This document shows, one piece after another, positions 33,721-55,914 of a stretch of 64,000 bases of DNA (positions are counted from its first letter, which is position 1; the number at the start of each line of letters is the position of its first letter). The stretch is from assembly GCF_039555335.1 (NCBI RefSeq), contig NC_092646.1, forward strand, positions 22,318,258 through 22,382,257, in the 5' to 3' direction. The stretch comes from Amphiura filiformis (lineage: Eukaryota > Echinodermata > Ophiuroidea > Amphilepidida > Amphiuridae). Under the pieces are notes generated by a model. That model ran no database searches, was not told the origin of the DNA, and saw only the letters and a list, made by a program, of their open reading frames with translations. A program made the position numbers and the translations under genes.

Positions 33721-34207
33721 AGTAATGGACAATTTGGCACATTCTGTTTGAGACCCCACTACATTCACAAGACGTCGTGCAAAAGGGAATTGTTTCAAAT
33801 GTGGCGTCTTTGTAAAGGGGAATAAACTGTCTGTCCATTGATATGCAACACAATATGAACATGTCACAAATAATCTCAGATATAGATGCTTAAAAAAAAC
33901 TTTCCAACTTTTTTTTGAGGAGTTTATACACCCACTGTAATACATTTTAGTGTCCTATAGTAGGAGACTACGCTCCCGTAATTGATTCGCATTCTTTCAT
34001 AACGATGATTGACACCGATCGGCACTCCGCAAGCTTAAAACATTTTCAGGAGTATCTCTTTCACTGTTTTTTTTCTAAAAGCAGCAGTTATTTATATTAA
34101 TCATACACAACGTTTGTGAAGCATGAACTCGCGCTATTTTATTTACGGCAAACCAAAATAACATATATTCGGGTTCGTGTCACAGCTACCCGTATGGTTC
34201 CTCTAAC

Positions 34208-34769: not shown

Positions 34770-34804
34770 CCTCTAACATCAATTCCATCTTCCAAACCAC
34801 TTAA

Positions 34805-35468: not shown

Positions 35469-35644
35469 TTAATATGTAACTATTCATAATTATGTTGAAT
35501 AGCAAGCTACGATGAAACCTCTGTCAAGTTAAAGAATATCCTTCTAGGACCCCATGCATGACATGAGTATTATGTCACATAGAGCTCCAAATACCGTCAC
35601 TCAAGAGGAATATTGGAATGGGCAGGTAATATCTCTCCACATCG

Positions 35645-36300
35645 AACATCTGTTTCATAACGATCCTACTGATCGGAGTTATCGGACACTCCACCCCAAA
35701 GTTTAACCTTTTTCAAAAGTGAATCTTTCACTGTTTTCCTGAAAACAGTTCTCAAATAATACACAATGAAATTCATACTCGCATTAGAAACTGTCATCAT
35801 TTGCGCACAAAAAATGAACCAATCATTCAGGTCCTTCACTGTTAAGTTTAAAAAAATGAACCAATCATTCAGGTCCTTCACTGTTAAGTTTTAAAAAAAA
35901 ATGAACCAATCATTCAGGTCCTTCACTGTTAAGTTTTAAAAAAAAAATGAACCAATCATTCAGGTCCTTCACTGTTTTAACAGTGAAGGACCTGAATGAT
36001 TGGTTCATTTTTTCACTTAAAAGTTCTCAAAATATAAATGATCAGTTGAGGCACTGTACAGATGATCATGCAAATAGTGAGTATTAAGAAAGTTCTTCTC
36101 TCTGCCATTCTTCTTGTGGAATACCCGTTCTGGAGCCACTATTTGTGAAGCATGGGTTCGAGCTATTTTATGTAGGCTGCAAAACAAAATCTAGATATCA
36201 GGGTTGGCGTCGTTGCTAACAAAATCATTTGCATGGTTCCTCCAATATCAATGCCATCTTCCAAACCGATGATACAAATGTGCATTATGTGATAACGAGA
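35645..36300 (-). pseudogene. GPCR pseudogene B (minus subfamily) with tandem-repeat expansion
   Basis: Minus strand: TM5/loop 3 (36200-36120), TM6 (about 36110-36020) and TM7 plus tail (35810-35650, SNASMNFIVYYLRT then FRKTVKDSLL). Between TM6 and TM7 the loop coding for KDLNDWFIF is repeated four times with growing A runs, followed by an inverted copy. TM1-4 are missing. It is unable to make a receptor. Confidence 0.8.
35811..36014. repeat. Four 42-47-bp tandem copies plus one inverted copy
   Basis: ATGAACCAATCATTCAGGTC followed by CTTCACTGTTAAGTTT starts at about 35814, 35857, 35901 and 35947. At 35979-36013 the complement CAGTGAAGGACCTGAATGAT follows after only a few bases, giving a long hairpin. 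Confidence 0.9.
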
Positions 36301-36304
36301 TTTT

Positions 36305-37180: not shown

Positions 37181-37530
37181 GCTTAGAATCTTAGGTCCTG
37201 GTTTGGTAATCGTCACTTTCTTCTGGTTATACGGTCAGCGGACATCTTGTTTGGTATGGAAACTATAATCTCGTTTACCTCAAATCAATCCTAAATATCG
37301 TGTTATCTGACGAGGTTGATAAATAACCTATAGCCCGTATATCGCACCAAAAGACAACTTGGTTCAATATTATGCTTACGTATGTTTAATCATAATTTAC
37401 AATACTTAAAATAAACGATCAGCAACAACGACGAAATATGGCCTAAATGTAACAGGAGAATGGGTTAACTCCCGTACAGAACTATGTTATCGAGAAATTG
37501 CTTCCCGTACATTTCAAATCAGTAAAGTCT

Positions 37531-38519
37531 TCACATCGAGCCTCGTTGTTTCATGATGAACCTACTGCTCGGACACTCCGCGCAAAGTTTAACATTTTTC
37601 AGAAGTAACTCTTTCACTGTCTTCCTGAAAGCAGCAGTTCTCCAATAATACACAATAACATTCATACTCGCATTAGAAACTGTCATCATTTGCGCAAAAC
37701 AAATGAACCAAGCGTTCAGGTCCTCTCCTGCTAGGTTTTCATAGATGTAAATGATCAGTTGAGGCACTGTACATATGATCATGCAAATAGTAAGTATTAA
37801 GAAAGTCACAGAAGTTCTTCTCTCTAACTCTCTGCAATTCTTCTTATGGACTACCCGTTCCTGAGCCACTATCTGTGAAGCATGGGTTCGAGCAATTTTG
37901 TGTAGACGGCAAAACAAAATAAGAGATATCATGGTTGGCAATGTAGCTAACAAGATCATTTGCATGGTTCCTCCAATATCGATTCCATCTTCCACACCAA
38001 CTATGCAAGTGTGCATATACGCTGAATAGTATGTGACACAGGCCGGTAGAACCATTCTGCCAACTTGCATAATAACCGCACAGGACCACAGAAGTATAAC
38101 GAAACAGCGGGCTCTAAATACCGTCACCCAAGAAGAGTATTGGTAGGGTCGCGTAATAGCGACATATCTCTCTACGTTGACCGCGGCAAGATTAAGTAGA
38201 AACAAAGTACCTACTATTGATCCTAAGTGAGCGAAAACGGAACAGCTCAACTCTCAAAAGGCCATCTGTTTTGTATTGTAGACGCAATTATGGGTAGCCA
38301 ATATATGACTCCGAGCAAGTCGATGCTGGTCATAGATGTTAAGAAAACCCTCGTGACAGGGTTAATATCTCGCATTTTATATAGGACAATAAGATTGAAT
38401 GAATTAAAGATAAGATCTACCACCAGCAGGATGGTGAGAGTGCAGGCTTTCATGATGAGTAAGCTGTTGGGGATGGTGGAGTCCAGTGAGGAAGCATTGG
38501 ATGCATTACGCGATTCCAT
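37531..38519 (-). pseudogene. Class A GPCR C (minus subfamily), one frameshift
   Basis: Nearly full-length seven-helix receptor on the minus strand. ATG at 38519 (MESRNASNASSLDS, two N-glycosylation sites), TM1 with VDLIFNSFN, TM2 TSMTSIDLLG, ECL1 NRWPF, TM3 ending VNVERYVAITRP (ERY for DRY), TM6 TICMIICTVPQL and TM7 SNASMNVIVYYWRTAAFRKT. Around 38248-38252 one base is missing compared with the paralogue at 50.5 kb (TTTTGAGAG against TTTTGGAGAG). That splits the frame after WPF. Everything else is intact, so a sequencing error or very recent loss is possible. It lies divergent to the intact plus-strand receptor at 40653. Confidence 0.85.
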
Positions 38520-39404
38520 ATTCTGTGAAAATGTAGCTCGAGATGACAAAGCTAAAGACACAGTGATCGTATTCAATATTGTTCTCGGTCTGCCGGTTGG
38601 TCCTGTTCAAACCATGACGCATGAGATAGGTGTTACCATGGTCGACACAGATTGTATTTACCACTGTAAAAATTGATCGGAACTGGCTTCGAAACCGTAC
38701 GTTGCTGGAGACTTAAATGTGATGGTTTGGTGACCAAAATCATTGAAAATATGCAGATAATTCAGTTTTCATCACCTCTTCCGATCGCGTTAAAAACGAA
38801 ATATATATTTTGCTCTTGGGCAAGATTAATAGTCATTGTCGTTATATCGTGTTAATCATTACTTTTAGCCATCAAACCTCGATCGTGACATTATTAATAA
38901 CTTCTACAGTGTATGGGAGTGTTTGCTAAAGTTACGATTAATGGCGTTAATGCTGTGTTGTGATTGTGTTCTAAGTGACACATTTTCCTTTGATATTAAC
39001 CTTTAGTTGCTAAACATCACAAAAAGCAACTACCTTTTTTTTTTTCATAAAAATAGCTTATGTGAAACTATCCCTCTTTTTCTTTCTTTCTTTTTTTTTT
39101 CTTTTGAAAAATTACTCAAACATAGGGGAACAAAATGGGAAACGGAAATAGCAAAAAGAAGCCTAATTATGCAGAACATATTACTACTGTACTTCTTTTT
39201 TTCAGTTTGAAAATTCGATGGATGGATTCTCAGTTATTATCCCCAATAAAGGAGGCAGTTGCCTTTTGTGATGTGTTTATAATAATGTCATGATTAACCA
39301 GTATTAATTTGTGGCCGAGAAATACTGCTTCTCAAAATTGCCCTATTACTATTCTACGATTCCGTACAAAATATCTCCACCGTACAAACATCCTTTCATT
39401 GTCG

Positions 39405-39992
39405 CAGACAAATGTGACCTGTTTCCACAAAATGAGCACAAAGTCGCAAGTTGGTGGTTTCGAGACCTTCCCATTGTTGGGTTAATGTTCTTTGAAGAAG
39501 CCTGTATAGTCAGTGGTACATGTATTGTCATTTATGAATGGGGACATTATATGTTGTACTCTGTATTCAATTATATCCCCATTTACAACGCACAGTGTCA
39601 ACACCCTATATTAATTATTATAAAAAAAAATTCCATACAGCTCCATACTCCGTTGGTGAGCGACGGGCGATTGGTATTTCACCGAACGCAAGAAAAGGAA
39701 TCCTATCGGTCAGTGGTAAAGTACAAACTCAAAATGTATTCAATTCAATTCAATGGTATGCTTAGCCTGAGTCGCTCGGCCTATCTGGAACAAAATCGCC
39801 ACGCGTAGCTGTTGAAAAACGAGACGATTCGGCGTACTATCACGGCAATTTTTGACACGAAGATATAGGGATGATGACGATGTGCAACGGTCATCCAAGT
39901 GGTAGTACAGGTGTCGTCAAGCAAAGAACATCAACATAACAATTGGAACGTCTCAAAACTCCCATCTTGCGACTTTTCCATCATTTCAAATA
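39405..39992. repeat. TIR-like unit, relative of 17214-17497
   Basis: ATGTGACCTGTTTCCACAAA with AAGTCGCAAGTTGGTGGTTT near 39412-39470 mirrors AAACTCCCATCTTGCGACTT near 39955. A short copy of the same theme exists in UTP11 intron 6. Confidence 0.5.
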
Positions 39993-40009
39993 AAACATTA
40001 GAATATTGG

Positions 40010-40652
40010 AAAGAAAGTGAGGTTCGTGCAGATACTTCAGTGTTCCACAAAAGATACGTCGAGACACGTCACATTTATTTAAAGTCTTTTGATTGGTGCT
40101 ATAACGATTGCTTAGTACATCATAGCCTATCTTCAATAGCTGCCCTGTGTAATGTTGTGTATAAATGTAATTGTGCTCATGAATAGTATTACCCAGGGGA
40201 GCTGTAATGAAGTCTCGTCTTTGTTGCATTGAACCCTCGTTTATATATTGTGGACGGCAAATCATGCCCGGTGATCATATTTTCATACTCGCAGTGATCG
40301 AATGTCTGATGGCGGCTACCACAGCAGATCAAACATTGTGTCCGAACGGCGCTAGTTTTGGAACGAACGAAAGACAACTGTGAGACGTGGTCACATCTTT
40401 AATCTGATTCTCAATGCTCGGATTTTCTCACCATCAGAACCTGCTGAAAGTGACACTTTCCTTGCCCAGTCAGGTGACACGCTGACAAAGTTAAGAGTCG
40501 GATGCTCTGGAAAGAATTTCCGCCCGGATCGTTATTGAGATCAATATTAATATTCCTGATGTGAGATAAACGACAGGTTGACCAAGAAACCTTTGTATGA
40601 AACAGCTTTTACTCTCATTAAATTATACTATAATTATTCTATTCATCACAAC
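40010..40652 (+). promoter_or_regulatory. Conserved 5' block of plus-strand GPCR copy 1
   Basis: The DNA upstream of all three plus-strand receptors is alike. It contains GTTGTGTATAAATG (TATAAAT at 40160-40166, and at 44813-44819 and 53107-53113), then GACAAAGTTAAGAGT and TGCTCTGGAAAGA and finally GACCAAGAAACCTTTGT. This is either a duplicated promoter and 5' UTR or simply the duplicated unit; the TATA role is inference. Confidence 0.5.
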
Positions 40653-41618
40653 ATGTCTACAAACAGAACAGAAGCATACGACATTCCGCCAAGTGTCATC
40701 ATCTTCAAAGCAACCTCTCTTGGAATAATTATCGTCTTAAGCCTCATTTTTAATTCTTTGACCCTCATAATTCTTCATCGTATGCGAGATATGAACCCTA
40801 TTACGAGAATTGTCTTAACATCAATGACGGTAACAGATCTAATTAGCATTAATTACTACGCCCCAATATTTGCATCAGCGGTTGTCAACAGGTGGCCATA
40901 TAGTGACCAGTACTGCACTGTTGTTGCATTTTTGACCATCTGTCTTGGGTCAGTGTATTACCTGCACCTACCTTTGGTTAACTTTGAGCGTTTCATTGCA
41001 GTGACCCGCCCATTTCAATACACCACTCGCATCACCGTAACGCGTGTACGCGTTACTGTGATAATTTTGTGGAGCGTTGCAGCCTTTTCAGCAATTGCGA
41101 GGTCTTTTCTACCTTACAAGATAACGTATTTTCCTCATTTTCACTGTTGCCTTGTGGGATCAGTTGGGTCAGATATCTTTGGAACAATTTATATTGTTGT
41201 TTTAACTATTATTCCTCTATGTTTATCTGTTTACTTCTTCATTCGATTATATGCTGTAGCTAGGTATCACACGAGACAAATAGAGGCACAAGTAAGAAGT
41301 TGTCATCGTAATGCTGTACAAGGTGGAAGCCGTAGGGAATTGGAAAGAAAGACGTCCGTAACTTTCTTTCTAATGACGGTATCTCTTATTGTGTGTATGA
41401 CTCCAAAGATCATTGTGAATATCTATGAGAACATAACAGCAGAAGAACTAAACGTGTGGTTTGTGAGCATTGCTGTGGTGATGGCAGCATTGAACTCAAT
41501 TATCAATGTCATTATCTATTATTGGAGAACGGCTGCTTTTAGAAAGGCAGCAAGAGACATTATTTTGGCACAACTGCATTATTGTAAGAATTATTGCAAC
41601 AGAAAATGTTTAAATTGA
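40653..41618 (+). CDS. Class A (rhodopsin-like) GPCR, plus subfamily copy 1, intact
   Basis: Single-exon receptor, 321 residues from the ATG at 40653. An in-frame ATG 25 codons upstream is less likely because the MSTN start is shared by all three copies. There is an N-glycosylation site NRT at 4-6. TM1 is about 18-42 with IFNSLTL (N34), TM2 50-75 with D62, ECL1 has W81 and the disulphide Cys C88. TM3 ends VNFERFIAVTRP (ERF, not DRY), TM5 has P188, TM6 has CMTP at 248-251 in place of CWxP, and TM7 has NVIIYYWR in place of NPxxY. No Asp is seen at the aminergic position in TM3 (Ile there), so it is not a monoamine receptor. The ligand is unknown; a chemosensory or peptide receptor is plausible for such an expanded family. 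It stands divergently to receptor C. Confidence 0.9.
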   Translation: MSTNRTEAYDIPPSVIIFKATSLGIIIVLSLIFNSLTLIILHRMRDMNPITRIVLTSMTVTDLISINYYAPIFASAVVNRWPYSDQYCTVVAFLTICLGSVYYLHLPLVNFERFIAVTRPFQYTTRITVTRVRVTVIILWSVAAFSAIARSFLPYKITYFPHFHCCLVGSVGSDIFGTIYIVVLTIIPLCLSVYFFIRLYAVARYHTRQIEAQVRSCHRNAVQGGSRRELERKTSVTFFLMTVSLIVCMTPKIIVNIYENITAEELNVWFVSIAVVMAALNSIINVIIYYWRTAAFRKAARDIILAQLHYCKNYCNRKCLN

Positions 41619-41639
41619 TTGTCTATGTATCACTCTTAC

Positions 41640-41985
41640 TAGGTTTCTATGCGGACATCGTACATGGACATTCCAGGATGCTCATCCGGAACACAAACGT
41701 GCTTTGCAACACGCGAACGACGACACACCGGTCAAATGTAAGAACTTTGCTATACCCTACGTGTCAGATCTGTCTGGAAAACTTCGGAGGATTTTCGGTC
41801 AACATCAGATCCCCGTCGCATTTAAAGCTGCCAACAGTTTGAGACAAAAACTGGTTCACCCAAAAAAAAACCATCTAAAGCTGAATTTATACTCGGTCGC
41901 TTTTGCAAAAAAGCGATTCTCGCGTATGCACAGGGTTTATTTCCGTTTTCAGAGCGTCAATTCAATCAATCAATAAAAATCACCG
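41640..41985 (+). mobile_element. Penelope-like fragment downstream of GPCR copy 1
   Basis: The frame after 41704 reads AIPYVSDLSGKLRRIFGQH, QIPVAFKAANSLRQKLVHPK, the pre-GIY-YIG region of Penelope-like proteins. It is related to 46788-47160, which lies in the equivalent place after copy 2. No GIY-YIG core remains. Confidence 0.75.
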
Positions 41986-42029
41986 AGGAAAAAACGACGT
42001 CGCTTTTTAATTGTATTTACCACTGTAAA

Positions 42030-42195
42030 AAGTTGATCAGAGAGTTTAGTGTCCAATGTAGAAGGATACATTAGAAGATTCCATCTGTGGAGAAAGCTCC
42101 ACACAAATAGAGGTTATAGTATCAATATTGTTTTCAATCTGTTGGTTGTGTTACGATCCGTAATGACTGAAGGCCAAAGTCACCTTTTACACAAA
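42030..42195 (-). pseudogene. 5' remnant of a minus-subfamily GPCR (unit B)
   Basis: GGATACATTAGAAGATTCCA and CAATATTGTTTTCAATCTG follow the same order as GGATGCATTACGCGATTCCA and CAATATTGTTCTCGGTCTG near 38500-38590, the N-terminal and 5' part of receptor C. Only the head survives. Its place matches a divergent partner of the plus-strand copy at 45379. Confidence 0.5.
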
Positions 42196-42199
42196 TTCA

Positions 42200-43160
42200 C
42201 ACGGATGCACAACAATAATACACTGTTTGATTAAGTTAACAATATCTGAATCTTTAAATCAAAAGATAAGTATAATCTATCAATAATCTTGTGAGAGAAC
42301 ATAAATACATATGATCAGTCAGAATCAATCAATTACACTGTGTTAAATAAAGATACTTGTACCATACCTCTGTGGTTTTACTTCCTAGTACCACTCTCTA
42401 GAGTGGAGTCAAAACCCATGTACCATTCCCATGTTCCACTCCAGAATAACAAGTCACATGGGAGATCACTTGTCCCACCCTCTAGTATAAACTTTAAAAA
42501 TAAACAGACCCACCCAAAGAGTGGTCCTACTCCAGACATAACATGTGACATGGGAGACTACTTGTACCATCCTCATAACAGGTGTGCCCAGAGAGTGATC
42601 TTTTTTCAATTAAAATTTCCAAGTAACCTCAATAAGGGTTCAAAAGACAACATTATGTAACCTCACAACAAGGGTTCCATGTGGGTGTATACTTTTAGGA
42701 CATTATGTTTGAATACATAGGCCTAGATTACTTGGCTAGAGTTTTGTCCTTGTAGAGTGCTCCTTTTTGCCATGTATCACTCTGCCCTGGTACAAGTAAC
42801 TTATTCGCCTGAAGGCCACTCGTGGAATAACTATTACTTAATCCAGCAGCCTTCTTGTTGTTGATTTGAAAGTTCTGATGTCAATGTTCTCAATTTGTTT
42901 TGATCAACTTTATACATGAGAGGATACCCATAAATGTCATCGATCTCATGAAATAACTTTGAATTATAAACAAAGGTAAATAATCAAGTTAAATTACTCA
43001 GGGCACATTCGAAACCTTTGTTTGTTTGAGACATAAATATTATGGTTTAATGTCCAAAATGGTTGAATTCAGTTAATTCGGTTTTTAATTACCTCTTCGG
43101 GTTGCGTTGAAAATTAAATATATTGCTTATTGGGTATGCAACATTAATGGTAATTGTATT
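42200..43160. other. No gene seen
   Basis: AT-rich spacer. Blocks of CCCATGTACCATTCCCATG and CACATGGGAGA(T/C) near 42415-42600 are loosely repeated. The 43060-43160 part resembles the DNA near 38745-38830 and 52560-52650, i.e. duplicated GPCR flank. Confidence 0.4.
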
Positions 43161-43168
43161 ATATAGTA

Positions 43169-43432
43169 CTCTCTTCTCTTGAAAATATTTTACTCAACTT
43201 GCGTAAAAAGGTCACAACTCAACAAATTGAGAAAAAAATTACTCAAATTGAGTAAATAATACCCAACATTGAGCTCATATTGATAAACAATACGCTCAGT
43301 ATTGGGTACTATTTATCAATATTTTAGCTCAATGTTGGGTATTATTTCCTAAATTTGAGTAATTTTTACTCATTTTGTTGAGTTGTGACCTTTTTACTCA
43401 AGATCAGTAAAATATATTTAAGAGTGTAGTCC
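43169..43432. mobile_element. Foldback MITE built on ACTCAA words
   Basis: AAAAGGTCACAACTCAACAAA pairs with GTTGAGTTGTGACCTTTTT, and inner TACCCAACATTGAGCT with AGCTCAATGTTGGGTA. About 260 bp, no coding sequence. Confidence 0.8.
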
Positions 43433-44219
43433 TCGTATCGTGTTAATCATAGCTTTATCCTACGGTCTTTCTGTAGCCAGCAACCATCGTGACATTATTA
43501 ATACCTAATATAGTGTATGGGAGTCTTGGCTTAATTTACAATTAATGGCGTTAATGCTGTGTTGTGATAGTGTTCTACGTGACGGGTTTTCCTTGACTAT
43601 TAGTTGCTAAATACATCACAAAAAGCAAGTACCCTTGCACAGTGTCATCGCCCCGATATCTTCATGGCAGAAATCGCCATGGTAGATTGAATCCACAGCC
43701 ACGCATGGCCATTTGTATCGACCTGTATAATAGGCCGAAGGACATCTGACTAAGGCTACTGACAATAGCCCCGATTACCTCGGTGACTGACCTCGCTGTT
43801 TCAAGTCGAGCATGGTAGCCATAGGTCATATTCTTTTAGACTACCTTCACGATTGGCCGATACACTGCGCTATATAATTCGGCACATATAAATCAGAATT
43901 ATTGCGGAATTATTGTCAGTTTTTGACTCAAGACGCAAGCTGCTGTCTCAAAGCGCAAACTAACGACTATCATTATCTGTTCAAAATATATATTCATGTG
44001 CAAGGGACCACATCTGGTTTCTTTATACGAAATCATTTACGGGAGATATTCATCATTTTCTACACCGGTATCCAAAGATTTTCTTCTCATATCAAACTCG
44101 TGCATAGCAAATTCACGTGTATCGATCCCGGGTATTCATTTAAGTATCTCTGCTGACAAAGTAATTATTAGCCAGGCGATGTCGGTGTGCCTTGGACGAA
44201 AAACGAGTGTCCAGAAACG

Positions 44220-44510
44220 AGATAATGCGAACATCCTTTGTAAGGAGTGTCATTCAAAGTCTAAACACATCAGAGAATCCATCTGGATCAGGAAAAGGGG
44301 ATCCAGCGTCATGAATAGGGACGAGGGGGTCCACTACTGAAGTCACGTATACGATCTTATCCTGACTGATACCCCATCTACAGTCGGGATCCGGCAAACC
44401 GGAAGTGGTGAGGATCTACCATCATCATTCTGATGATGACTTTCGACCACTATGATGTTAGACGAAACCGTCAATCGTGAGTAAAATTCTGGTTTTGTGC
44501 AAAAGAAATT
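44220..44510 (+). mobile_element. Penelope-like 3' end with candidate hammerhead
   Basis: The frame KHIRESIWIRKRGSSVMNRD-EGVHY ends the coding part at 44340, followed by the pLTR with TTCTGATGATGACTTTCGACC and GACGAAACCGTC. The 3' tail then reads GTGAGTAAAATTCTGGTTTTG, as in the element at 13190-14215. The 5' portion is lost. Confidence 0.8.
44427..44478 (+). ncRNA. Candidate hammerhead-like motif, second Penelope copy
   Basis: ATT-CTGATGA opens, GAAACCGTC-AAT closes, and ATT/AAT can form a 3-bp stem I. Stem II is weaker than in the 13.2-kb copy (GAC/GTC only), so this copy is probably decayed. Confidence 0.35.
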
Positions 44511-44559
44511 TATTCAATCTGTTTATAAATGTTATCAGTATTAATTTGTAATCGAGAAA

Positions 44560-45378
44560 TACTGCTTCTCAAAATATTGCTTTATTACGAAACGGTACAA
44601 AATTATTAACCACTACGATACAAACACCATTTCAATGTCGCAGAAAAATAAAGCAATAGAGTATTAGAAAAAACTGATGTTCGTGTGGATACTTCAGTAG
44701 TTTCACAAAAGATGTATCAAAACATGTCACTTTAAATGTCGTTTGATTGGTGCTATAACGATACTCAGTGCAACAAAGCCATATCTTCATAGCTGCCCTC
44801 GGTAATGTTGTGTATAAATGCAATTGTGCTTATGAATAGTATTACTCAGGGGAGCGATAATGAAGTTGAGCCTTTGTTGCTCTGAACTCTCGATTAATAT
44901 AATGTGGAAGGAGAATCATACCCGGCGATCACGCTTTCATACTCGCAGTGATTGGATGTCTTATGCACACATAGACCATCAAGACTACGACAACAGGTCC
45001 AACATTGTGTCTCACAACGGGCCTACTTTTGGGACGAACGACAGACAACACTTTAAACTGATTCTCAGAGTTGGGATTATCATTTGCTCACCTTCGGAAC
45101 CTGCTGAAAGTGACACGTTCCCTTGTCCAATCATTTGATGGCCTTGTACATACGTCTTTTGGTAAAAGTCGTCGCATCGTGACCGTAGTCAGGTGACACG
45201 CCGACAAAGTTAAGAGTTGTATGCTCTGGAAAGAATATCCGCCCGGATCGTTATTGAGATCAACAATAATATTCCTGATGTAAGATAAGCGGCAGTTTGA
45301 CCAAGAAACCTTTGTTTGCATGAAACAGTACGTTTTACTCTCAATAAATTATACTGTAATTATTCTATTCATCGCAAC
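44560..45378 (+). promoter_or_regulatory. Conserved 5' block of plus-strand GPCR copy 2
   Basis: Same block order as upstream of copy 1: TATAAAT at 44813, the GACAAAGTTAAGAGT word at about 45195 and GACCAAGAAACC at about 45299. It marks the duplicated unit. Confidence 0.5.
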
Positions 45379-46259
45379 ATGTCTACAAACAGAACAGAAG
45401 CATACGACATTCCTCCAAGTGTCATCATCTTCAAAGCAACCTCTCTTGGAACAATCATCGTCTTAAGCTTCATTCTTAATGCTTTAACCCTCGTAATCCT
45501 TCATCGTATGCGAGATATGAACCGCATTACGAGAGTTTTCTTAACATCAATGACGGTAACAGATCTATGCAGTCTTGGTTATTACTTCCCTATATTTGCA
45601 TCTGTCTTGGGTCAGTGTATTACCTGCACCTACCTTTGGTTAACTTTGAGCGTTTCATTGCAGTGACCCGCCCATTTCAATACACTACTCGCCTCACCGT
45701 ATCGCGTGCACGAGCTACTGTGTTAATTCTGTGGAGCGTTGCAGCCTTTTCAGCAATTGCGAGGTCTTTTCTGCCTTACAACATATCGTATTCTCCTCGT
45801 TTGAATGATTGCACCGTGGGATCGGTTGGGTCAGAAATCTTTGGAATAATTTTTATAGTTCTATTAACTATTATTCCCCTATGTTTATCTGTTTACTTCT
45901 TCATTCGATTATATGCTGTAGCTAGGTATCACGCCAGACAAATAGAGGCACAAGTAAGAAGTTGTCAGCGTAATGCGGTACAAGGTAGGAGCTGTGGGGA
46001 ATTGGAAAGGAAGACGTCCGTAACTTTCTTTCTAATGACGGTATCTCTTATTGTGTGTATGACTCCAAAGATCATTGTGAATATCTATGAGAACATAACA
46101 GCAGAAGAACTAAACGTGTGGTTTGTGAGCATTGCTGTGGTGATGTCAGCCTTGAACACAATTATTAATGTCATCATCTATTATTGGAGAACGGCTGCTT
46201 TTAGAAAGGCAGCAAGAGATATTATTCTAGCACAAATGAAGCGAATAGTGCGAACGTAG
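45379..46259 (+). pseudogene. Class A GPCR, plus subfamily copy 2, 64-bp deletion
   Basis: Very close to copies 1 and 3 from MSTNRTEAYDIPPS through TM2 (PIFAS), then again from LGQCITC/ LGSVYYLHLP in a shifted frame to IILAQMKRIVRT. The missing 64 bases code ECL1 and the first part of TM3, including the disulphide Cys. The joint TTTGCATC|TGTC has CATC at both edges of the lost segment in the intact copies, as expected of microhomology repair. The second frame (45567-46259) is otherwise undamaged, with NFERFIAV, CMTP and NVIIYYWR. No functional receptor is expected. Confidence 0.9.
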
Positions 46260-46779
46260 TGTAACAGAAAATGTCTAAATTGATTGTCTTTGTGTTACTA
46301 TAGTATTACTTAGTACCTTTCAGCAAAACTGTCATCTCTGACGTTATGCTGGCAGATTTGATTCACTGGAAGAAAGCGTTATAGCTCTTTGTGGACATGA
46401 AGTCAATGAATCAAATTAAAGTATACGTTTTTGAAGGTTCTCAATCATCCAGGTATAATTTAATATTAAAATGAACTCGTAAAACTATTCAACTGCACCT
46501 ACGTTTTTGTATCTTATGTACATATTCAGACCGTCTGTCGATCTAGCGGCAATTGGTCATTAACCTGTGATAAGATTTTGTTGCCTTAGATCGTTGATTT
46601 TGAGTCAAACTTCCAGTAGGAATGTCAGTGGACAAAAAGAGCACACATACGGAACAATACTTATTGTTTGACGCACACCACCCTTGGTACACTAGGTGGG
46701 AGTTATCCGAACACTGCTCCATAGAGCGGGTACCATATCTTTGGACGAGATCGTGAAAGAAGAGGAACACAAACACTCA

Positions 46780-47180
46780 AATCGGCTTTGGGTGTGTGCG
46801 GACATCGCAAATGGACATTCCACAAAGCTCTTCCTGGAAATAAACGAACTTCCAAACTACACTCGCGACACGCGACGCGACGTTATACCGGTCAAACGGA
46901 AGAACGTTACCATCCCTTAGGTGTCATTTATTATCTGTCTGAAAAACTTCGGAGAATTTTCGGCCAACATCTGATCCCCGTCTCATTTAAACCTACCAAC
47001 ATTTTGAGACAGAAGCTGGTTCACCCAAAAGACAAGCCACCCAGGACAAACAGAGGAATATTGCCATACAATATGTAAGGATACCGATTGCCTGGACTGT
47101 ACATTAACATAGGTGAAACAAAACAGACATTAGCAAAACGTACGTATCAGCACAGACGAACTAGTACCGGTTGTGGTGAT
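46780..47180 (+). mobile_element. Penelope-like fragment downstream of GPCR copy 2
   Basis: YLSEKLRRIFGQHLIPVSFK, then LRQKLVHPKDK and, frameshifted, YINIGETKQTLAKRTYQHRR, a degenerate GIY-YIG region. Related to the fragment after copy 1, so it may have been copied with the receptor unit. Confidence 0.75.
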
Positions 47181-47199
47181 TCCACCGTGTATACGCCAG

Positions 47200-47825
47200 T
47201 GTAGTCCGCACGACTGGCTGCAGGCGGTGATGGAAGCGATATCGCCAATTTTGAGGTCGTCATTGGATTAACACATAATCATGAAATCTTCACAAACAAT
47301 TCTAAATTTGTTATGTGGTGTCAAAGCAAAATTATCTTACTCTAAAACCGCCGGGGTTCTACAAAGTACCCCACTGCAAGTATGTTAATTTTCCATATGT
47401 AATTGCTAACCGTGTATTTTGAATGGGGCTGTCAGCCCTGTATCTTCGCCAGCCTCGTACGTCACGTGTCGCGCTTCCTATGCCACCTGACTGGCTGCTC
47501 CGCAACCTGTCCGGCCTGAAAGTAACCTGTTCATGTCCATAATTTTATGTATTTTACTTTTACGAGGGGTGGGAAAACATTTGACGAAAATCGTCCAAAA
47601 TGGTCAACAAGGCCTATATTTCGACGGACAGCATTCCACATGGAGAGGATGGGGCAAAATGTTTCACAGTCCCCTGACTACACCACTGGATCGAAGTGGG
47701 CATTTAAAAAAAAAATCAAACAAAAGACGATTAAAAAACAAACCAGGACACAAATTTAGTGAAAATCAAAGGTCAACCAAATTATTTGACCTACAATGTA
47801 TGTATTATGTACAGCTCATTCAGAA
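47200..47825. other. No gene seen
   Basis: Spacer with small direct matches to the GPCR 3' flank; no protein motif. Confidence 0.35.
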
Positions 47826-47829
47826 TCAA

Positions 47830-47975
47830 TATTTGTGAAGATGAATTCCAGCTATTTTGTGTAGACGCTAAAACAAAGTAAAATGTTGGAGTCAAATCTA
47901 GCAAGATCATTTGTATGGCTCTCCTTGCAGAAATGCCATCTTCCAAACTAATGAAGAAAGTGTGGATATGTGATA
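47830..47975 (-). pseudogene. Short minus-subfamily GPCR fragment
   Basis: TGTGAAGATGAATTCCAGCT, ATTTTGTGTAGACGCTAAAA and GCCATCTTCCAAACTAATGA align in order with the TM5/loop segment of receptor C near 37875-38000. Only this segment survives. Confidence 0.55.
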
Positions 47976-48124
47976 ACGAGATTTAATTGGGTTACTACTA
48001 TTTTTTGCCAGCGAAGTAAAGCGAAGAACTTCGCCACTTTCTTCTGGTTAAACGGTCGGAGGTTGATCTTGTTTGGAATGGAAACTATAATCTCGCTTAC
48101 CTCAAATAAATGTTATCGGACGAG

Positions 48125-48505
48125 GTCAGGGTTCTGTTTTTGCAACTGGCAAACATGTGTTTTGCCAGTTTTTGTCTGTTTAAACTGGCAAAAATGCCAT
48201 AAAACACATAAACAGTAACACACAACTTTAAATGAATCAATCATTTAACATATTTTTTCTCATCAAGTCCTTAGAATGAAAGCGATTTGAATTTGATATG
48301 ATACATTTCAGTGCATTGCATTTTTGAGCAATGAAATCCCATGCCATTAATTTTTTTAATATGTTTCTATAATTGAAAAATCTGGCCTGATCACACTCAG
48401 GAAATTATTTTATGACTCAATGTTTTTTAGATGAATTGCTATCTTTGCCGGCGAAAACTGTGTTTACCAACTGGAAAAACCCGCGGTTAAACTTGCAAAA
48501 CCTGG
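48125..48505. mobile_element. MITE copy inserted in duplicated GPCR 3' flank
   Basis: The flank GACGAGGT...TGATAAATAACCTATAGCC of receptor C (37309-37335) is split here, with GACGAGGT ending near 48128 and GGTTGCTAAATAACCTATTG resuming near 48509. The inserted unit has the same termini as 8024-8425. Confidence 0.65.
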
Positions 48506-48749
48506 AAGAGGTTGCTAAATAACCTATTGCCTTCGCCTGTATTATAGATCACACTAACTGACAAAAACATGACTCAATATTAAGTTTGCTTAATCTTAAG
48601 TTACAACACTTACAATAAACAATTAGCATAAAATGATGTAATAGATATGGCTTTAGTATCTAACAAGAGAGCAGAGAATTATATATAGTTAATTCCCGCA
48701 CAGGACTTTATTATCGATATTACTTCCCGCTACATTCTAAATCAGCAAA

Positions 48750-49440
48750 GACTTCACATCGTCCATCGTTGTTTTATGATGATGATCCTACTGTGCAGAC
48801 ACTCCGCGCAAAGTTTAAGATTTTTCAGAAGTAAATCTTTCGCTGTTTACCTGAATGCAGCGCAGCTGTCTCCAATAATACACGACAGCATTCATACTCG
48901 CATTAGAAACTGACATCATTTGCAGTTATTTGCGCAAAACAAATAAACCAAACGTTCAAGTCCTTCCGTGATAAGTTCTACTAGATGTAAATGAGCAGTT
49001 GAAGGCACTGTATAGATGACCGTGCAAATAAAGCTAAAAAGTAAGTATGAGAAAAGAAAAAGAAAAAGAAAGTTACAGAAGTTCTTCTCTCTAATTGTCT
49101 GCAATTCTTCTTGTGGACTAGCCCGACTACCCGTTCTTGAGCTATTTGTGAAGCATGGATTCGCGCTAGTTTGTGTAGACGGCAAAACAAAATAATAGAT
49201 ATCAGGGTTGCAGTCACAGCTTGCAACATCATTATGTATGGTTCCTCTGATATCGTTACAATTGTGCATATATTGTGAATAGTAAGCGACCCCGGTAAAT
49301 GATATTGGCTGGTCGAACACCCCTGACAACTTCCAAGAATAACCAAAGGACCAAGAAAGTATAAAAAAAACAGCGGGCTCTGAATACCGACACTCAAGAG
49401 ACCGAAGAGTAGTGAAATGGTCGTTATGATAGCTAAATGA
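48750..49440 (-). pseudogene. Minus-subfamily GPCR pseudogene D
   Basis: Minus strand: loop 2 / TM4 remnant (49435-49330), loop 2 cysteine region, TM5 with TLISIILFCRLHKLARIHAS (49215-49150), loop 3 with VHKKNCRQLERRTSVTF, a poly-F frame slip in TM6, then TM7 and tail (48910-48780). Several frame changes. TM1-3 are absent because it is fused at the loop-2 point to the C-terminal end of pseudogene E, as in the A/B pair. Confidence 0.8.
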
Positions 49441-49444
49441 TCTC

Positions 49445-50754
49445 TTCACATCGACCCTCGTTGTTTCATGATGACTGTCAGAAGTAACTCTTTCACTGTT
49501 TTCCTGAAAGCAGCAGTTCTCCAATAATACACAACAACATTCATACTCACATTAGAAACTGTCATCATTTGCGCAAAACAAATGAACCAAGCGTTCAGGT
49601 CCTTTCCTGTTAAGGGGTACTACACCCTGGCCAATTTTGTGCCTATTTTTGCATTTTTCTCAAAAATTATAGCACATTGGTGACAAGTAAGATATGTATA
49701 TTATAGGGCAAAGACTACAACTACTGTACTGAAAATTCAGCAACTCAAAGCAAGTAGTTATTGATTTATTGATCAAATACTGGTTTTCCTCATTTTTGAC
49801 TGTAACTCCACAACTGTTGTCTGTGCTGAAATAAAATTTCCAGAGCAGTAGTTGTAGTCCTTGCCCCTATAATATACATATCTTACTTGTCCCCAATGCG
49901 CTATATTTTTTGAAAAAAAAGAAAAAATAGGCACAAAATTTGGCAGGGGTGTAGTACCCCCTTAAGTTCTCATAAATATAAATGATCAGTTAGGGCACTG
50001 TACAGATGATCATGCAAATAGTAATTAGTTAAAAGTCACAGAGGTTATTCTTTCTAATTCTCTGCCATTCTTCTTGTGGACTACCCGTTCTTGAGCCACT
50101 ATCTGTGCAGCATGGGTTTTACCTATTTTGTGTAGACGGCAAAACAAAATAATAGATATCAGGGTTGGCAATTTAGCTAACAAGATCAATTGCATGGTTC
50201 CTCCAAAATCAATACCATCTTCCACACCAACTATGCAAGTGTGCATATACGCTGAATAGTAAATGACACTGGCTGGTTGAACAGTTGTGCCAACTTGCAT
50301 AATGACCGCAAAAGACCAGAGGAGTATAACGAAACAGCGGGCTCTAAATACCGTCACCCAAGAAGAGTATTGGTAGGGTCGGGTAATAGCGACATATCTC
50401 TCTACGTTGACCGCGGCAAGATTAAGAGCAAACAATGTACCAACTATTGATCCTAAGTGAGCGAAAACGGAACAGCTTAACTCTCCAAAAGGCCATTTGT
50501 TTTGTATGTATTGTAGACGCAATTATAGGTAGCCAATATATGATTCCGAGCAAGTCGATGCTGGTCATAGATGTTAAGAAAACCCTCGTGACAGGGTTAA
50601 TATCTCGCATTTTATATAGAACAATAAGATTGAAGGAGTTCAAGATAAGATCTACCGCCAAAAGTATGGTCAGAGTGCATGCTTTCATGATGAGTAAGCT
50701 ATCGGGGATGATAGAGTCCGACATAGAAGCATTGGATGCATTTGAAGATACCAT
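49445..50754 (-). pseudogene. Minus-subfamily GPCR pseudogene E, interrupted by a piggyBac-like MITE
   Basis: From ATG 50754 (MVSSNASNAS) the helices run as in receptor C. A 4-base duplication (ACATACA for ACA, near 50508) shifts the frame before WPFGEL. The second frame continues through VNVERYVAITRPYQYSSWVT, ILFCRLHKIGKTHAAQIVAQ and RITSVTF, where a TAA ends it near 50025. TM6 is damaged between 50025 and 49966. The MITE at 49614-49961 separates it from TM7 and the tail (49613-49450). Three independent lesions. Confidence 0.9.
49614..49961. mobile_element. 348-bp piggyBac-like MITE inside GPCR pseudogene E
   Basis: Exact TTAA at 49610-49613 and 49962-49965. Termini GGGGTACTACACC and GGGTGTAGTACCCCC. 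The host DNA rejoins cleanly from TCAGGTCCTTTCCTG to GTTCTCATAAATATAAATG, as in the uninterrupted receptor C. Confidence 0.9.
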
Positions 50755-51019
50755 ATTCTGTGAAAATGTCGCTCGATATGAAAATGCACAATTATAGTAT
50801 ATAATATTGTTCTCAGTCTGTCGGTTGGTCACTGATCTAATAGCCTAACTATGATGCCCATGCCCAGGGTAGGTTTTACCGTGATTGACAAAGATTGTAT
50901 TTACCACTGATCAGGGATTGAATTGTCCAATGTAGAAGCATTGGATACAATGAGAGTCCATTCGTGAATATGTTTATTATAATGGTGTTCCATCTCAACA
51001 GCAAAATCTTACTTGCGGT

Positions 51020-51502
51020 GTGCCTCAAGGTTCAATACTGGGTCCACTACTTTTCATTATATATGTTAACGATATTCACTTAATTACTGAGTCACTTGGT
51101 GTGATTTCATTTGCTGATGACACCAATTTATTTTACTCTCACAATCAGTTTAATGTTATTGAGGAGGTCTGCAACAAAGAGCTTATTAATGTGAATAGAT
51201 GGTTCCCGGTAAATAAATTATCTGTCAATGCTAAAAAAACGAATTATATGTTACTCGGTACCAAGAAGAACACAAAACCTGAGTACAATTTGCAATTGTT
51301 TCTTGACTCTGACAGGCACTCAAGAACACCGCTTGAAAAAGTGCCAAGCACTAAGTTTCTAGGTCTACAAATTGACCAGAATATCACTTGGAAAGAACAT
51401 ATTGATAATATTGTAAAAACATGTTCAAGAAATGTCGGTATCATTAATAAATTAAAAACTTCCTCCCACATGAGGCGTTATATACATTGTATTGCTCTTT
51501 GA
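51020..51502 (+). pseudogene. LINE reverse transcriptase, palm region
   Basis: Open for 160 codons with the PQGSILGPLLF and FADD blocks; truncated at the 5' side and followed by a frameshifted partner. Confidence 0.85.
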
Positions 51503-51957
51503 TATTACCGTATATCAATTATGGTATCTTAGCTTGGGGATGTGCATGTTCATCATACATAAATGATCTTTTTAAAATTCAAAAGAGGGCACTTCGTATT
51601 ATAAGTGCAAGTGATTATAGAAGTAGCACAAATCCCTTACTGATTAGGTATAATACTTTAAGTGTCAGGGATATGTATACATTTGAACTTGGTTTATTTA
51701 TGTACAAACATGATAATGGACTTTTACCGAGTGTTTTTGATGATTTATTTGTAAAACAGTCTAAGATCCATGACTTGAATACCAGATATAAAGATCGTCT
51801 GAGGCTTCCATTTATCAAAAGAGCTTTCTGTGACAAATCTATTAAATATGCAGCTACTAAGTTATGGAATAATGTTGATAACAGTATTAAAAGTTCATCA
51901 TCGATTAATCAATTCCGCCATGTATTTAAAAAACATCTCATGCAAAGTTACTGTTAA
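51487..51957 (+). pseudogene. LINE reverse transcriptase, thumb and C-terminal region
   Basis: Open for 156 codons; overlaps the previous frame by 16 bases, showing a small indel near 51490. Motifs LILPYINYGILAWG and KLWNNV are typical of the region after the palm. Confidence 0.85.
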
Positions 51958-52439
51958 TTCCTATTGTATCTGATTTATGTGACCACATTGGATATTTATA
52001 TTTTATATTACTTATTGTTGTGCATTTTCTTATTTACTATTGTTTACTGTTATTTTTCATGTATTTAGGTTAATTCATATCAAGATATGACAGTTTACTG
52101 TTGCTTCTTCATTGAAATGACAATCTGCTGCCATGTCTAATGATGAATTAACCAATCAAGGGATCACAGACTTTCAGGCCTCTTCTTGGCCTTTCCTGTG
52201 ATTCCTTCACTCTCACTTGTATTATGATTTTGTATGTATCCTATGTATATTTGCTATTTGATGAGTGAAAAAAATAAATGAATGAATGAATGAATGAATG
52301 AATGAAGAAAGATATAGGTACAAAGTTATCACGCCAATATTATTTCCAATCTGGTAATTATTTGTCTAATCTAGTGACTATTCGTCTAATCTAGTTACTA
52401 TTCGTCAAATCTGGTGGTTATTCGTACGTCTAATACCAT

Positions 52440-52960
52440 GTTCAAATCATAATCCCCGGGCAAGGTGTTACCATGATCGGCACAGATTGTATTTAAACTT
52501 TGATTGGAACTGACTTCAAACCCTTAAGTTCCATGGAGACCTAAAGATGATGGTTTGGTGACAAAAATGGTTATATTCAGATAATTCCGTTTTCATTACC
52601 TCTTCCAATCGCGTTAAAGTGAAATATATTGCTTCATATTGGGCATGCATATTTGTAGAATCATACTCCAGTCGTTGGATCGTGTTTATCATTACCTTTA
52701 TGTGTGGAAGTCTGCTAAATTTACGATTAATGGTGTTAATGCTGTATTGTGATTGTGTTCTAAGTGACAGGTTTTCTAGTCTGGGCTTCTTTTTGTTTTT
52801 GCAGTTTGAAAATTTGATGGATATGGATGGATTTTAACTTATTATCCCCAATAAAGGAAGAAGTTACCTTTTGTGATTTGTTTATAATAATATAATGATT
52901 ACCACTATTACTTTGTGGCCAAGAAATACTGCTTCTCAAAAGTATTAGGAATTATTAGTA
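52440..52960. repeat. Duplicated GPCR intergenic DNA
   Basis: GGTGTTACCATGATCGGCAC and ATGATGGTTTGGTGAC match 38630-38730 in the same order, and TTACGATTAATGG(T/C)GTTAATGCTGT matches both 38931 and 43530. It is the spacer between the minus and plus receptor of a unit, here split from the pseudogene E head by the LINE. Confidence 0.65.
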
Positions 52961-52969
52961 TTATTAGTA

Positions 52970-53640
52970 TCGTGTGGATACTTCAGTAGTTTCACAAAAG
53001 ATGCATCGAAACACGTCACACTTATTAAAAGTCGTTTCATTGGTGCTACAACGATCCTCAGTGCAACAAAGCCATATCTCCAATAGCTACCCTGTGTAAT
53101 GTTGTGTATAAATGTAATTGTTCTGATGAATAGTATTACCCAGAGGAGCTAGTGCAGTTGAGCCTTTGTTGCACTGAGCCCTCGATTAATATATTGTGGA
53201 AGGCGAATCATGCCCATCGATCACGCTTTCATACTCGCAGTAATAGGATGTCTGATGGGACACATAAACCATGAGGACTACGGCAGCAGATCAAACACTG
53301 TGTCTCAACGACACTAGTTTTGGTACGAACAAACGACAACTGTCAGACGTGATCACACCTTTAAACTGATTCGGAACCTGCTGAAAGTTGCACTTTCCCT
53401 TGTCCTGTTATTTGATGGACTGGATTACGTCTTTTGGTAAAAGTTGTCGCGTCGTGACAGGTGATACACCGGCAAAGTTAAGAGTTGTATGCTCTGGAAA
53501 AGACTTTCGGCCCGGATCGTTATTGATATCAATAATAACATTCCTGGTGCGAGATAAGCGACAGTTTGACCAAGAAACCTTTGTATGAAACAGGTTATAC
53601 TCTCATTAAATTATACTGTTACTATTCTATTCACCACAAC
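52970..53640 (+). promoter_or_regulatory. Conserved 5' block of plus-strand GPCR copy 3
   Basis: TATAAAT at 53107-53113 and the words GGCAAAGTTAAGAGT, TGCTCTGGAAAAGA and GACCAAGAAACCTTTGT in the same order as upstream of copies 1 and 2. Confidence 0.5.
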
Positions 53641-54600
53641 ATGTCTACAAACATAACAGAACTTTACGACATTCCTTCAAGTATCATCATCTTCAAAGCA
53701 ACCTTTCTTGGAACAATTATCGTCTTAAGCCTCATTCTTAATACTTTAACCCTCATAATTCTTCATCGTATGCGAGATATGAACCCCATTACGAGAGTTT
53801 TCTTAACATCAATGACGGTAACAGATCTATGTAGTCTTGGTTATTACTTCCCTATATTTGCATCAACGGTTGTCAACAGGTGGCCATTTAGTGACCAGTA
53901 CTGCACCATCGTCGCATTTTTGACCATCTGTCTTGGGTCATTGTATTGCCTGAACCTACCTTTGGTTAACTTTGAGCGTTTCATCGCAGTTACCCGCCCA
54001 TTCCAATACACCACTCGCCTCACCGTAACGCGTGCACGTGCTACTGTGATAACTCTGTGGAGCGTTGCAGCCTTTTCAGCAATTGCGAGGTCTCTTCTGC
54101 CATACAAGATATCGTATTCTCCTCACATGCACGGCTGCACCGTGGGATCTCAATCGGTTGGGTCAGATATCGTTGGAACAATTTACACAATCGTTTTAGC
54201 TATTATTCCTTTATGTTTATCTATTTACTTCTTTATTCGATTATATACTGTGGCTAGGCATCACGCGAGACAAATACAGGTGCAAGAAAGAAGTTGTCAG
54301 CGTAATGCGGTACAAGGTGGAAGCCGTAGCGAATTGGAAAGGAAGACTTCAGTAACCTTCTTCCTAATGACTGTATCTCTTGTTGTGTGTATGGCTCCAA
54401 AGATCATTGTGTATACCTATGAGAACATAACAGCAGAAGAACTAAACATGTGGTTTGTGAGCATTGCCGTGGTAATGTCAGCCTTGAACACAATTATTAA
54501 TGTCATCATCTATTATTGGAGAACGGCTGCTTTTAGAAAGGCAGCAAGAGATATTATTTTGGCACAACTGAAGCGAATTGTGAGGAATGAATTAGTGTAA
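53641..54600 (+). CDS. Class A (rhodopsin-like) GPCR, plus subfamily copy 3, intact
   Basis: Single-exon receptor of 319 residues beginning MSTNITELYDIPSSI (N-glycosylation site NIT). It shares the subfamily hallmarks with copy 1: N in LILNTLTL, D in TVTDLCSLGYY, NRWPF then the disulphide Cys, VNFERFIAVTRP, CMAP in TM6 and NVIIYYWRTAAFRKA in TM7. ECL2 has a three-residue insertion (GSQSVGSD for GSVGSD). The tail LKRIVRNELV is shorter and more basic than the Cys-rich tail of copy 1. Alternative start is the ATG 25 codons upstream (53566). The substitution of Pro in NPxxY and Trp in CWxP is fixed in the subfamily, so it is not decay. Confidence 0.9.
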   Translation: MSTNITELYDIPSSIIIFKATFLGTIIVLSLILNTLTLIILHRMRDMNPITRVFLTSMTVTDLCSLGYYFPIFASTVVNRWPFSDQYCTIVAFLTICLGSLYCLNLPLVNFERFIAVTRPFQYTTRLTVTRARATVITLWSVAAFSAIARSLLPYKISYSPHMHGCTVGSQSVGSDIVGTIYTIVLAIIPLCLSIYFFIRLYTVARHHARQIQVQERSCQRNAVQGGSRSELERKTSVTFFLMTVSLVVCMAPKIIVYTYENITAEELNMWFVSIAVVMSALNTIINVIIYYWRTAAFRKAARDIILAQLKRIVRNELV

Positions 54601-55300
54601 CATAATGAAATGTTGAAATTAATTGTCTATTTGTAACTATTTACTAGGTTTCAGCAAAACTGCCATATAATTACGGTATGATTTGATTCACTGGCAGAGA
54701 GGCATTACAAGCTCTTTGTGGACATGAAGGCAATGATTCAAATCAAAATATACGTTTGTGAAGGTTGTCATTCATCCAGGTATAATTAGATATTAAAATG
54801 AACTATTTAACTGGACCAACGTTTTTTTATCCTATGTACATCTTTAGGCCGTCTGAATAGTTTTATGAGTTCATTTGAATAATTGAAACAAATCACTTTA
54901 AAATCAATACGACCTTAATTTACCTGTTGAACAGGACACCTCTCCTTATCAAACTACTGTCATTCTTCTTCAAAAAATAATAGAGGTTATCCGTGTTCTA
55001 GCTGCATATCCTATCAGCGACTGCTATACCTTGTTTAGGACTTTCAAAAGAAGTACCTGCATGTGCAATCATGACTGTTTCAAAATAGCCCGCCAAAGTC
55101 ATGCAGGTAACTTCGAGGTCGTGCATTGAATTGGTTTGAATGAGGAATACTACGGGAACCAGCGCCTTTTGTTAGAAGTCACACATGAGAAAAGTGGATA
55201 ACCTCTATGGGAGTGACATTTCCCATCCTGGCTGAACAGATTATAATAGTTATACTTGTATGTTTCCTCCGCAGAGCCTTGCCGGTTCGCTGGCTCGAAA
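54601..55300. other. No gene seen
   Basis: The first 150 bases resemble the 3' flank of copy 2 (46260-46450: AAGCTCTTTGTGGACATGAA and CCAGGTATAATT). The rest is unrecognised. Confidence 0.45.
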
Positions 55301-55416
55301 CAGTAGCGTAACCAGGATTTTTTCAGAGGGGGGGAGGTGGAGTGCAAAATTTCAAACTGAGGGCAAGGGGAACAGATATTTCACAGCCCCTCCCCTCCTC
55401 CTTGGCTACGCCACTG
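55301..55416. mobile_element. Short hAT-type MITE
   Basis: CAGTAGCGTAACCAGG and CTTGGCTACGCCACTG are imperfect TIRs of the CAGTGGCGTA type; flanks GCTCGAAA and GATCAAAA match 6 of 8. Confidence 0.6.
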
Positions 55417-55424
55417 GATCAAAA

Positions 55425-55652
55425 TACCGTAAAACCTCGTCTACAAGCATATAAAGTGTTTTTGATAAAAGCTTAATTAATACGAAACAAGCGTCAATAT
55501 AGCAATACAATAGATTGGTCTTACAATAATACTTGTTTGTATATGCTTGGATCTGTAATTTATTTGCTCAAACTCCATAATGGAGCCTGGAATAATTTAG
55601 CTTTCATCAGAAGCACTATATATGGTTGTAGACGAGATTTTACGGTAGGCAT
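55425..55652. mobile_element. TIR element, TACCGTAAAA(N)CTCGTCTACAA
   Basis: TACCGTAAAACCTCGTCTAC opens and GTAGACGAGATTTTACGGTA closes the 228-bp unit. The same left terminus appears at 30461 (TACCGTAAAAATTCGT). Confidence 0.75.
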
Positions 55653-55914
55653 TTGACCGGGGTATTTGAAAGAATTTTTCCAAGTTAAAAGACAAATTCG
55701 ATTCAAAAATAAATCAGTACAAACATTTAATGAAAATAAAGGTCAGTCGAATTCTTTGACCTCCAATGTATGTATTAAACACAGCTCATTTCAGAACCTC
55801 GATTTAAAAAATAATGGTTATTACAATTACTTAAACAGTCAGTAGGGATAACGTCAAACCTCAACTGGCGGTCGACCACAGGCGTCTCAGCAGAACCAGT
55901 GTTTGAGCCCAGTT

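Follow-up and report, generated by a model that had tools for sequence, protein, structure and literature searches.

How does a head-to-head pair of receptor genes come to be repeated together with the DNA that lies between its members? This question is raised by a cluster of receptor genes of Amphiura filiformis in a 64-kb stretch of contig NC_092646.1 (positions 22,318,258 to 22,382,257), referred to here as the window. The cluster contains three plus-strand copies (P1, P2, and P3) and seven minus-strand copies or remnants (M00, M0, M1, M2, M3a, D, and E). Each P copy follows the head of a minus-strand receptor, which gives three units: A (M1/P1), B (the M2 remnant/P2), and C (E/P3). The obtained results make it likely that this is a class A receptor cluster of the birth-and-death type, grown by duplication of multi-gene blocks.

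Collinear units of the receptor cluster

Receptor copies were confined to 35.56-54.6 kb in a tblastn search of the whole window with six query pieces, and nucleotide matching extended the region to the left, to 33.99 kb. A head-like stretch at 50914-50973, which may belong to a partial duplication, was left out of the count of M copies. The genes, spacers, and flanks of the cluster are as follows (j1 and j3 denote recurring junctions):

33992..35631, minus strand: M00, minus-type receptor remnant with nucleotide matches to M1 at 34005-34110, 34115-34175, 34770-34799, and 35473-35631
35634..36303, minus strand: M0, minus-type remnant, 78-82% nucleotide identity to M1, joined to M00 at j1
37531..38519, minus strand: M1, full-length minus receptor in two frames, with a single frameshift near 38250; Pfam 7tm_1 in the C-terminal part (E-value 6.6e-15)
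38520..40652: unit A spacer, made of collinear blocks; about 39413-39988 lacks a collinear match in B or C
40653..41618, plus strand: P1, intact class A receptor of 321 amino acids, no stop; Pfam 7tm_1 (E-value 7e-22)
41650..41870: P1 3' flank block, homologous to 46797-47035 in unit B (76% nucleotide identity)
42010..42158, minus strand: M2, minus receptor remnant, head only, holding j3; start codon remnant at 42084-42082
42159..45378: unit B spacer, collinear with A and C, lengthened by stretches without a collinear match
45379..46283, plus strand: P2, plus receptor disrupted by a 64-bp deletion with frameshift
46284..47834: P2 3' flank, sharing 46797-47035 with the P1 flank, and the part to 46537 as well as 47723-47834 with the P3 flank
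47805..47984, minus strand: M3a, minus-type remnant with the same end point as M0; 47827-47984 is 73.7% identical to 36137-36303
48505..49456, minus strand: D, minus-type pseudogene, 72% identical to M1 37309-38182
49443..50909, minus strand: E, minus-type pseudogene; 49963-50909 is 86.9% identical to M1
50910..53640: unit C spacer, beginning with j3 (50894-50973) and holding frames of long interspersed nuclear element (LINE) type at 50954-51957
53641..54600, plus strand: P3, intact class A receptor of 319 amino acids; Pfam 7tm_1 (E-value 2.5e-25)
54601..55805: P3 3' flank, partly common with the P2 flank, with matches to 54855 and at 55694-55805

The receptor genes were open without introns over their whole length. 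The P2 and P3 proteins shared 79-83% identity with P1, and the C-terminal two thirds of M1 showed 43-45% protein identity to the P copies; therefore, M and P are two subfamilies of one family. Start codons were located at 38519 (M1, minus), 40653 (P1), 45379 (P2), 50754 (E, minus), and 53641 (P3). Thus, an earlier note on this DNA had correctly described minus and plus receptors facing away from each other at 38519/40653 and the head of E preceding P3. The minus head that it placed before P2 was real but short: M2 42064-42148 corresponded to M1 38499-38599 (67%), and M2 42036-42158 to E 50701-50837 (68%, E-value 4e-10 in a restricted search).

Self-comparison demonstrated that M head, spacer, P, and 3' flank form homologous blocks whose order and orientation agree among the three units, so that genes, spacer, and flanks were collinear as in a tandem block duplication. 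Between A and B, spacer blocks A38688-38850 and A38826-39037 corresponded to B43008-43167 and B43418-43636; nearer to P, A39271-39413 corresponded to B44517-44649, and A39988 onward to B44646 onward. Between A and C, the corresponding blocks were A38604-38987 and C52439-52776, A39197-39337 and C52796-52941, and A40024 onward and C52970 onward. The plus-strand spacer bases aligned at an E-value of at most 1e-4 numbered 1091 (A-B), 1049 (A-C), and 910 (B-C), and none of 60 dinucleotide shuffles of the spacer gave any match in each of the three comparisons. The repetition of the spacer and of the plus-gene 5' blocks, as asserted in the note, was thereby confirmed. Its spacer example, TTACGATTAATGG, cited near 38931, 43530, and 52720, was exact at 38932 and 52721, whereas the unit B copy at 43536 carries one mismatch. 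Five of the six tested unit A spacer blocks had no match elsewhere in the window beyond the three units. The remaining block (40103-40243) overlaps an element with inverted repeats that is dispersed in the window (also at 28819-28947 and 55917-56044) and lies inside the co-duplicated spacer of all three units. The 3' flanks were homologous only partly, A with B and B with C.

In addition, the minus side holds junctions that recur between units. At j1, a copy broken near the M1 equivalent of 38158-38182 is followed by a copy starting at 37528. This junction was found between M00 and M0 (35631/35634, unit A) and between D and E (49456/49443, unit C), and it is spanned by one alignment of 105 columns (67.6%; E-value 6.5e-9 in a restricted search). 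At j3, the M 5' flank runs directly into a second M head in B (42010-42089) and C (50894-50966), again with one spanning alignment of 83 columns (67.5%), in which a gap of 10 columns falls at the joint. The order of M end, flank, and next M (j2) was seen at 36303 then 37210 in A (M0/M1) and at 47984 then 48031 in C (M3a/D). The joint of the P2 3' flank with M3a was considered as a further common junction, and no M-like match was found to the right of P3. As a twofold origin of one junction is unlikely, the M-only duplications either predate block copying or were spread by exchange. Judging from the sequence, minus-only tandem duplication also took place, and the duplicated unit is probably larger than one pair, with a minus side that carries tandem M remnants. 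Thus, where the note took the unit to be the divergent pair and not the single gene, co-duplication is upheld by collinearity and divergence, but the pair probably does not represent the whole unit, and to deny any role to the single gene goes too far in view of the minus-only duplication.

Elements and repeats were found both in the M copies and in the spacers. M00 is split by an inverted-repeat element (34801-35472), a second copy of which lies at 10007-10664 (90% identical). Within M0, a short tandem repeat at 35809-36041 has units of 42-46 bp and, after them, an inverted copy; it is made of receptor coding sequence. E is interrupted by an inverted-repeat element of ~350 bp (about 49612-49963) with TTAA at both edges and a 95% identical copy at 19332-19691; we take it to resemble a non-autonomous element of the piggyBac type. 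In the unit A spacer, terminal inverted repeats (39430-39494/39922-39986) delimit an inserted element at 39430-39986, and a short inverted match links A 39837-39891 with B 43685-43631. The unit B spacer contains an inverted repeat at 43176-43424. In the unit C spacer, 50954-51502 matched Pfam RVT_1, and the LINE-type frame 51451-51957 had no Pfam match. These elements of the A, B, and C spacers fall into the gaps between the homologous blocks, for which the other units show nothing collinear. A candidate target duplication of this LINE (50860-50903 and 52452-52495, 80% alike) was rejected, being indistinguishable from an older partial repeat. Palindromic homology between the M and P 5' flanks was likewise rejected: unit A yielded only the terminal repeats of the inserted element and one match with an E-value of 0.47, and the tested part of C (52439-53640) yielded none.

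Divergence, probable exchange, and decay of the copies

Between A and C, the divergence K was 0.28 for M, 0.20 for the spacer, and 0.23 for P. Synonymous-site divergence was 0.231 between M1 and E (254 codons) and 0.195 between P1 and P3 (317 codons compared), and divergence of the A-C spacer and 5' flank was 0.178 (948 sites from blocks alignable in all three units); these three proportions did not differ (chi-square p 0.23). The about equal divergence of M, spacer, and P fits joint copying in one block event.

Mosaicism was explored by labelling variable sites at which two of the three sequences are alike as A-B, A-C, or B-C. In the coding sequence, the labels were clustered (132 sites in 58 runs, where shuffles averaged 86 and none of 5000 was as low), and in noncoding DNA they were less so (213 sites in 123 runs, against 142; 17 of 5000 shuffles as low). 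The pattern suggests exchange among copies as its simplest reading, and uneven selection along the coding sequence could add to the clustering there.

Several observations weigh against growth by block duplication. Equal divergence could also arise from later homogenisation. The noncoding K values were nearly equal (A-B 0.185, A-C 0.204, B-C 0.197). Among 500 bootstraps, the closest pair was A-B in 344, B-C in 105, and A-C in 51 for noncoding DNA, and in 402, 96, and 2, respectively, for the coding sequence; the bootstraps thus favour A-B, but both j3 and the near part of the 3' flank tie B to C. The branching order of the units appears to be settled neither by the bootstraps nor by the junctions, and a clean tree was not obtained. 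One proposal placed B nearest to C in the DNA upstream of P and invoked conversion of P1 and P2; it was dropped, because the distances were nearly equal and the coding and noncoding bootstraps alike leaned toward A-B. Nor did coding and noncoding DNA differ in their ratio of A-B to B-C sites (Fisher p 1.0), so exchange was not gene-specific. Moreover, the M part of unit B is down to ~120 bp (67-68% identity), and j2 represents order alone, with no spanning alignment and a gap of 0.9 kb in A and 47 bp in C.

The copies differ in their state of preservation. P1 and P3 are open throughout, and P2 bears the 64-bp deletion. The frameshift of E differs from that of M1 and lies about 20 bp away, and E carries further frame changes besides the inserted element. 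The ratio of nonsynonymous to synonymous divergence (dN/dS) was 0.31 for M1-E (Fisher p 2e-7) and 0.46 for P1-P3 (p 2e-4), both significantly below 1. Together with the different lesions, these low values indicate that, of the M copies, at least M1 and E were probably functional at block copying and were lost separately later. Intact copies comprised two of three P and none of seven M (Fisher p 0.067, with small numbers). The better preservation of the plus gene reported in the note was observed in all three units, with the reservation that P2 itself is broken, whereas M1 retains its full length and has just one frameshift.

Explanations for the repeated arrangement

From the collinearity, the recurring junctions, the similar divergence, the distinct lesions of M1 and E, and the mosaic pattern, all of which were observed directly, we infer the following order of events. 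An ancestral receptor would long ago have given rise to the two opposed subfamilies M and P, and the minus side would have expanded through M-only tandem duplication. Blocks of tandem M genes, M-P spacer, P, and 3' flank would then have been duplicated to give the three units, with unequal crossing-over between repeats as the most likely mechanism. Later patchy exchange between the copies would have made the units mosaic, mobile elements would then have inserted into the spacers, and the M genes would have broken afterwards, M1 and E by different lesions, with P left intact in two of the three units.

The same arrangement might be expected if M and P formed separate tandem arrays, interleaved by chance and with unrelated spacers. 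Minus-only duplication did occur, as four M copies (M00, M0, D, and M3a) lack a P partner; however, the self-comparison revealed spacers that are homologous and collinear in three units, which excludes separate arrays with unrelated spacers, the outcome by which the note would have been refuted, and makes this explanation hardly credible. An unlikely explanation is that the similarity arose mainly from gene conversion between old independent pairs. It would agree with the mosaic signal, clear in the coding sequence and weaker in noncoding DNA; however, conversion poorly explains several collinear spacer blocks split by unit-specific stretches, or the copied junctions. Block duplication accompanied by exchange is preferred.

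The earlier note also suggested looking for a shared bidirectional promoter. Such a promoter in the spacer might explain why M and P were kept and copied together. The genes are head-to-head in three units, and the spacer is kept beside each P. Divergently paired genes are described in a published survey as having start sites <1 kb apart, with 4.3% of divergent pairs being tandem duplicates (PMC2670823); our pairs share with them the head-to-head orientation and the relatedness of M and P, which resembles that of the tandem-duplicate pairs (PMC2670823). However, the M and P start codons, which were measured here in place of transcription start sites, are 2134 (A), 3295 (B), and 2887 (C) bp apart, i.e., 2.1-3.3 kb, as opposed to the 1 kb between start sites given there (PMC2670823). 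Some spacer stretches exceeded column shuffles, a null that takes no account of indel clustering: no shuffle of 1000 equalled the best conserved 80-column stretch (40124-40202), 3 of 1000 reached the best 50-column window, and 129 of 1000 reached the best window of 30 columns. However, the 80- and 50-column windows both overlap the dispersed element, and a 20-bp invariant run outside it (39318-39337; 23 of 1000 shuffles) is weakly unusual at most. In addition, the divergence of the spacer is close to the synonymous rate, and M is broken in every unit. The sequence thus appears to offer nothing that speaks positively for a bidirectional promoter, the suggestion of the note found no support, and co-copying through such a promoter is distinctly improbable. 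A stronger version, in which selection acts on the M-P arrangement as a unit, with the pair co-expressed or co-chosen from a shared control region and copied as a cassette, and with the M half recently and repeatedly shed in parallel while the control region is kept for P, also has a very slim chance of being right. Close to the M genes, the motif TTTTCACAG lies three bases before the ATG in M1 and E (38523-38531 and 50758-50766, minus strand). It could be the splice acceptor of an untranslated exon, in which case the true M start lies elsewhere.

The favoured explanation, growth by block duplication, is an ordinary mode of receptor-family growth that is recorded here with unusual clarity. Within about 20 kb, duplication of blocks and of minus genes alone, exchange between copies, insertion of elements, and loss on one side would come together in a neat case of birth-and-death evolution. 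If the parallel loss of M proves general in the genome, one receptor subfamily would have been shed while its neighbour was retained.

Receptor class and comparison with known systems

The genes of the window appear to be of animal type, with class A receptors, a protein with a C1q domain, and a reverse transcriptase of LINE type among them, and G+C ranged from 36 to 44% in 4-kb steps. Just to the right of the cluster, a 257-codon frame on the minus strand (56895-57668) encodes the C1q domain (Pfam E-value 8e-23), preceded by a short collagen-like GPEGPRG. At 1267-4033 on the plus strand, an endonuclease frame (Pfam Exo_endo_phos, 1267-2256) and more open frames probably represent a degraded LINE-like element.

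P1, P3, and the C-terminal part of M1 belong to Pfam PF00001 (7tm_1), with scores of 78.6, 89.9, and 55.7 bits, respectively, at a cut-off of 30.5; the N-terminal part of M1 alone (119 amino acids) had no 7tm_1 match. Class A G protein-coupled receptors (GPCRs) carry the motifs [DE]R[YF] at transmembrane helix (TM) 3, CWxP at TM6, and NPxxY at TM7. ERF or ERY was found at the TM3 motif of these receptors, and in both subfamilies NVIIY or NVIVY replaces NPxxY, and CMTP, CMAP, or CTVP replaces CWxP. Aminergic and trace-amine receptors have Asp at position 3.32; this residue is absent here, being Thr in P1 and P3 and Gly in M1 and E. Nevertheless, the PDB sequences that best matched P1 were trace-amine receptors; those that best matched the M1 C-terminal part were GPR21 and histamine H2. 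For P3, an AlphaFold model built from the single sequence reached a pLDDT (predicted local distance difference test) of 48.8 and was not used. From these motifs and matches, P is probably an orphan, lineage-expanded, ligand-sensing receptor and is perhaps chemosensory.

Other echinoderms offer some of the closest known systems. In the part of the crown-of-thorns study available to us, the ApORs are olfactory-like rhodopsin GPCR clusters, compared with the sea urchin surreal-GPCRs, with 12 genes in a 140-kb region in both orientations (PMC5442662). The cluster described here likewise consists of class A receptors in both transcriptional orientations; it differs in its co-duplicated spacer, none being reported in that part of the study (PMC5442662), and the likeness is one of receptor class and arrangement. 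The olfactory receptor (OR)-like receptors of sea cucumber are presented as mostly single-exon genes in tandem arrays under purifying selection, with the signature motifs LxxPxYxxxxxLxxxDxxxxxxxxP and MAxDRYxxxCxPLxY (PMC7042368). Our cluster shares the single exon, the tandem arrays, and the purifying selection. It differs in that the first signature is not fully present: neither full motif was found in P1, P2, P3, or the C-terminal parts of M1 and E, and only the D........P end of the signature was found in the P copies and, by eye, in the N-terminal part of M1.

Co-duplicated divergent GPCR pairs were not described in the titles and abstract openings of the literature searched, a result that holds for those searches only. 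Head-to-head pairs duplicated as blocks are represented by histone H2A-H2B, plant nucleotide-binding leucine-rich repeat (NLR) pairs, and the A/B genes of major histocompatibility complex (MHC) class II, in which two opposed genes were likewise multiplied together. Unlike in those systems, both genes of the pair in this cluster belong to one receptor family, and one side of the pair decays.

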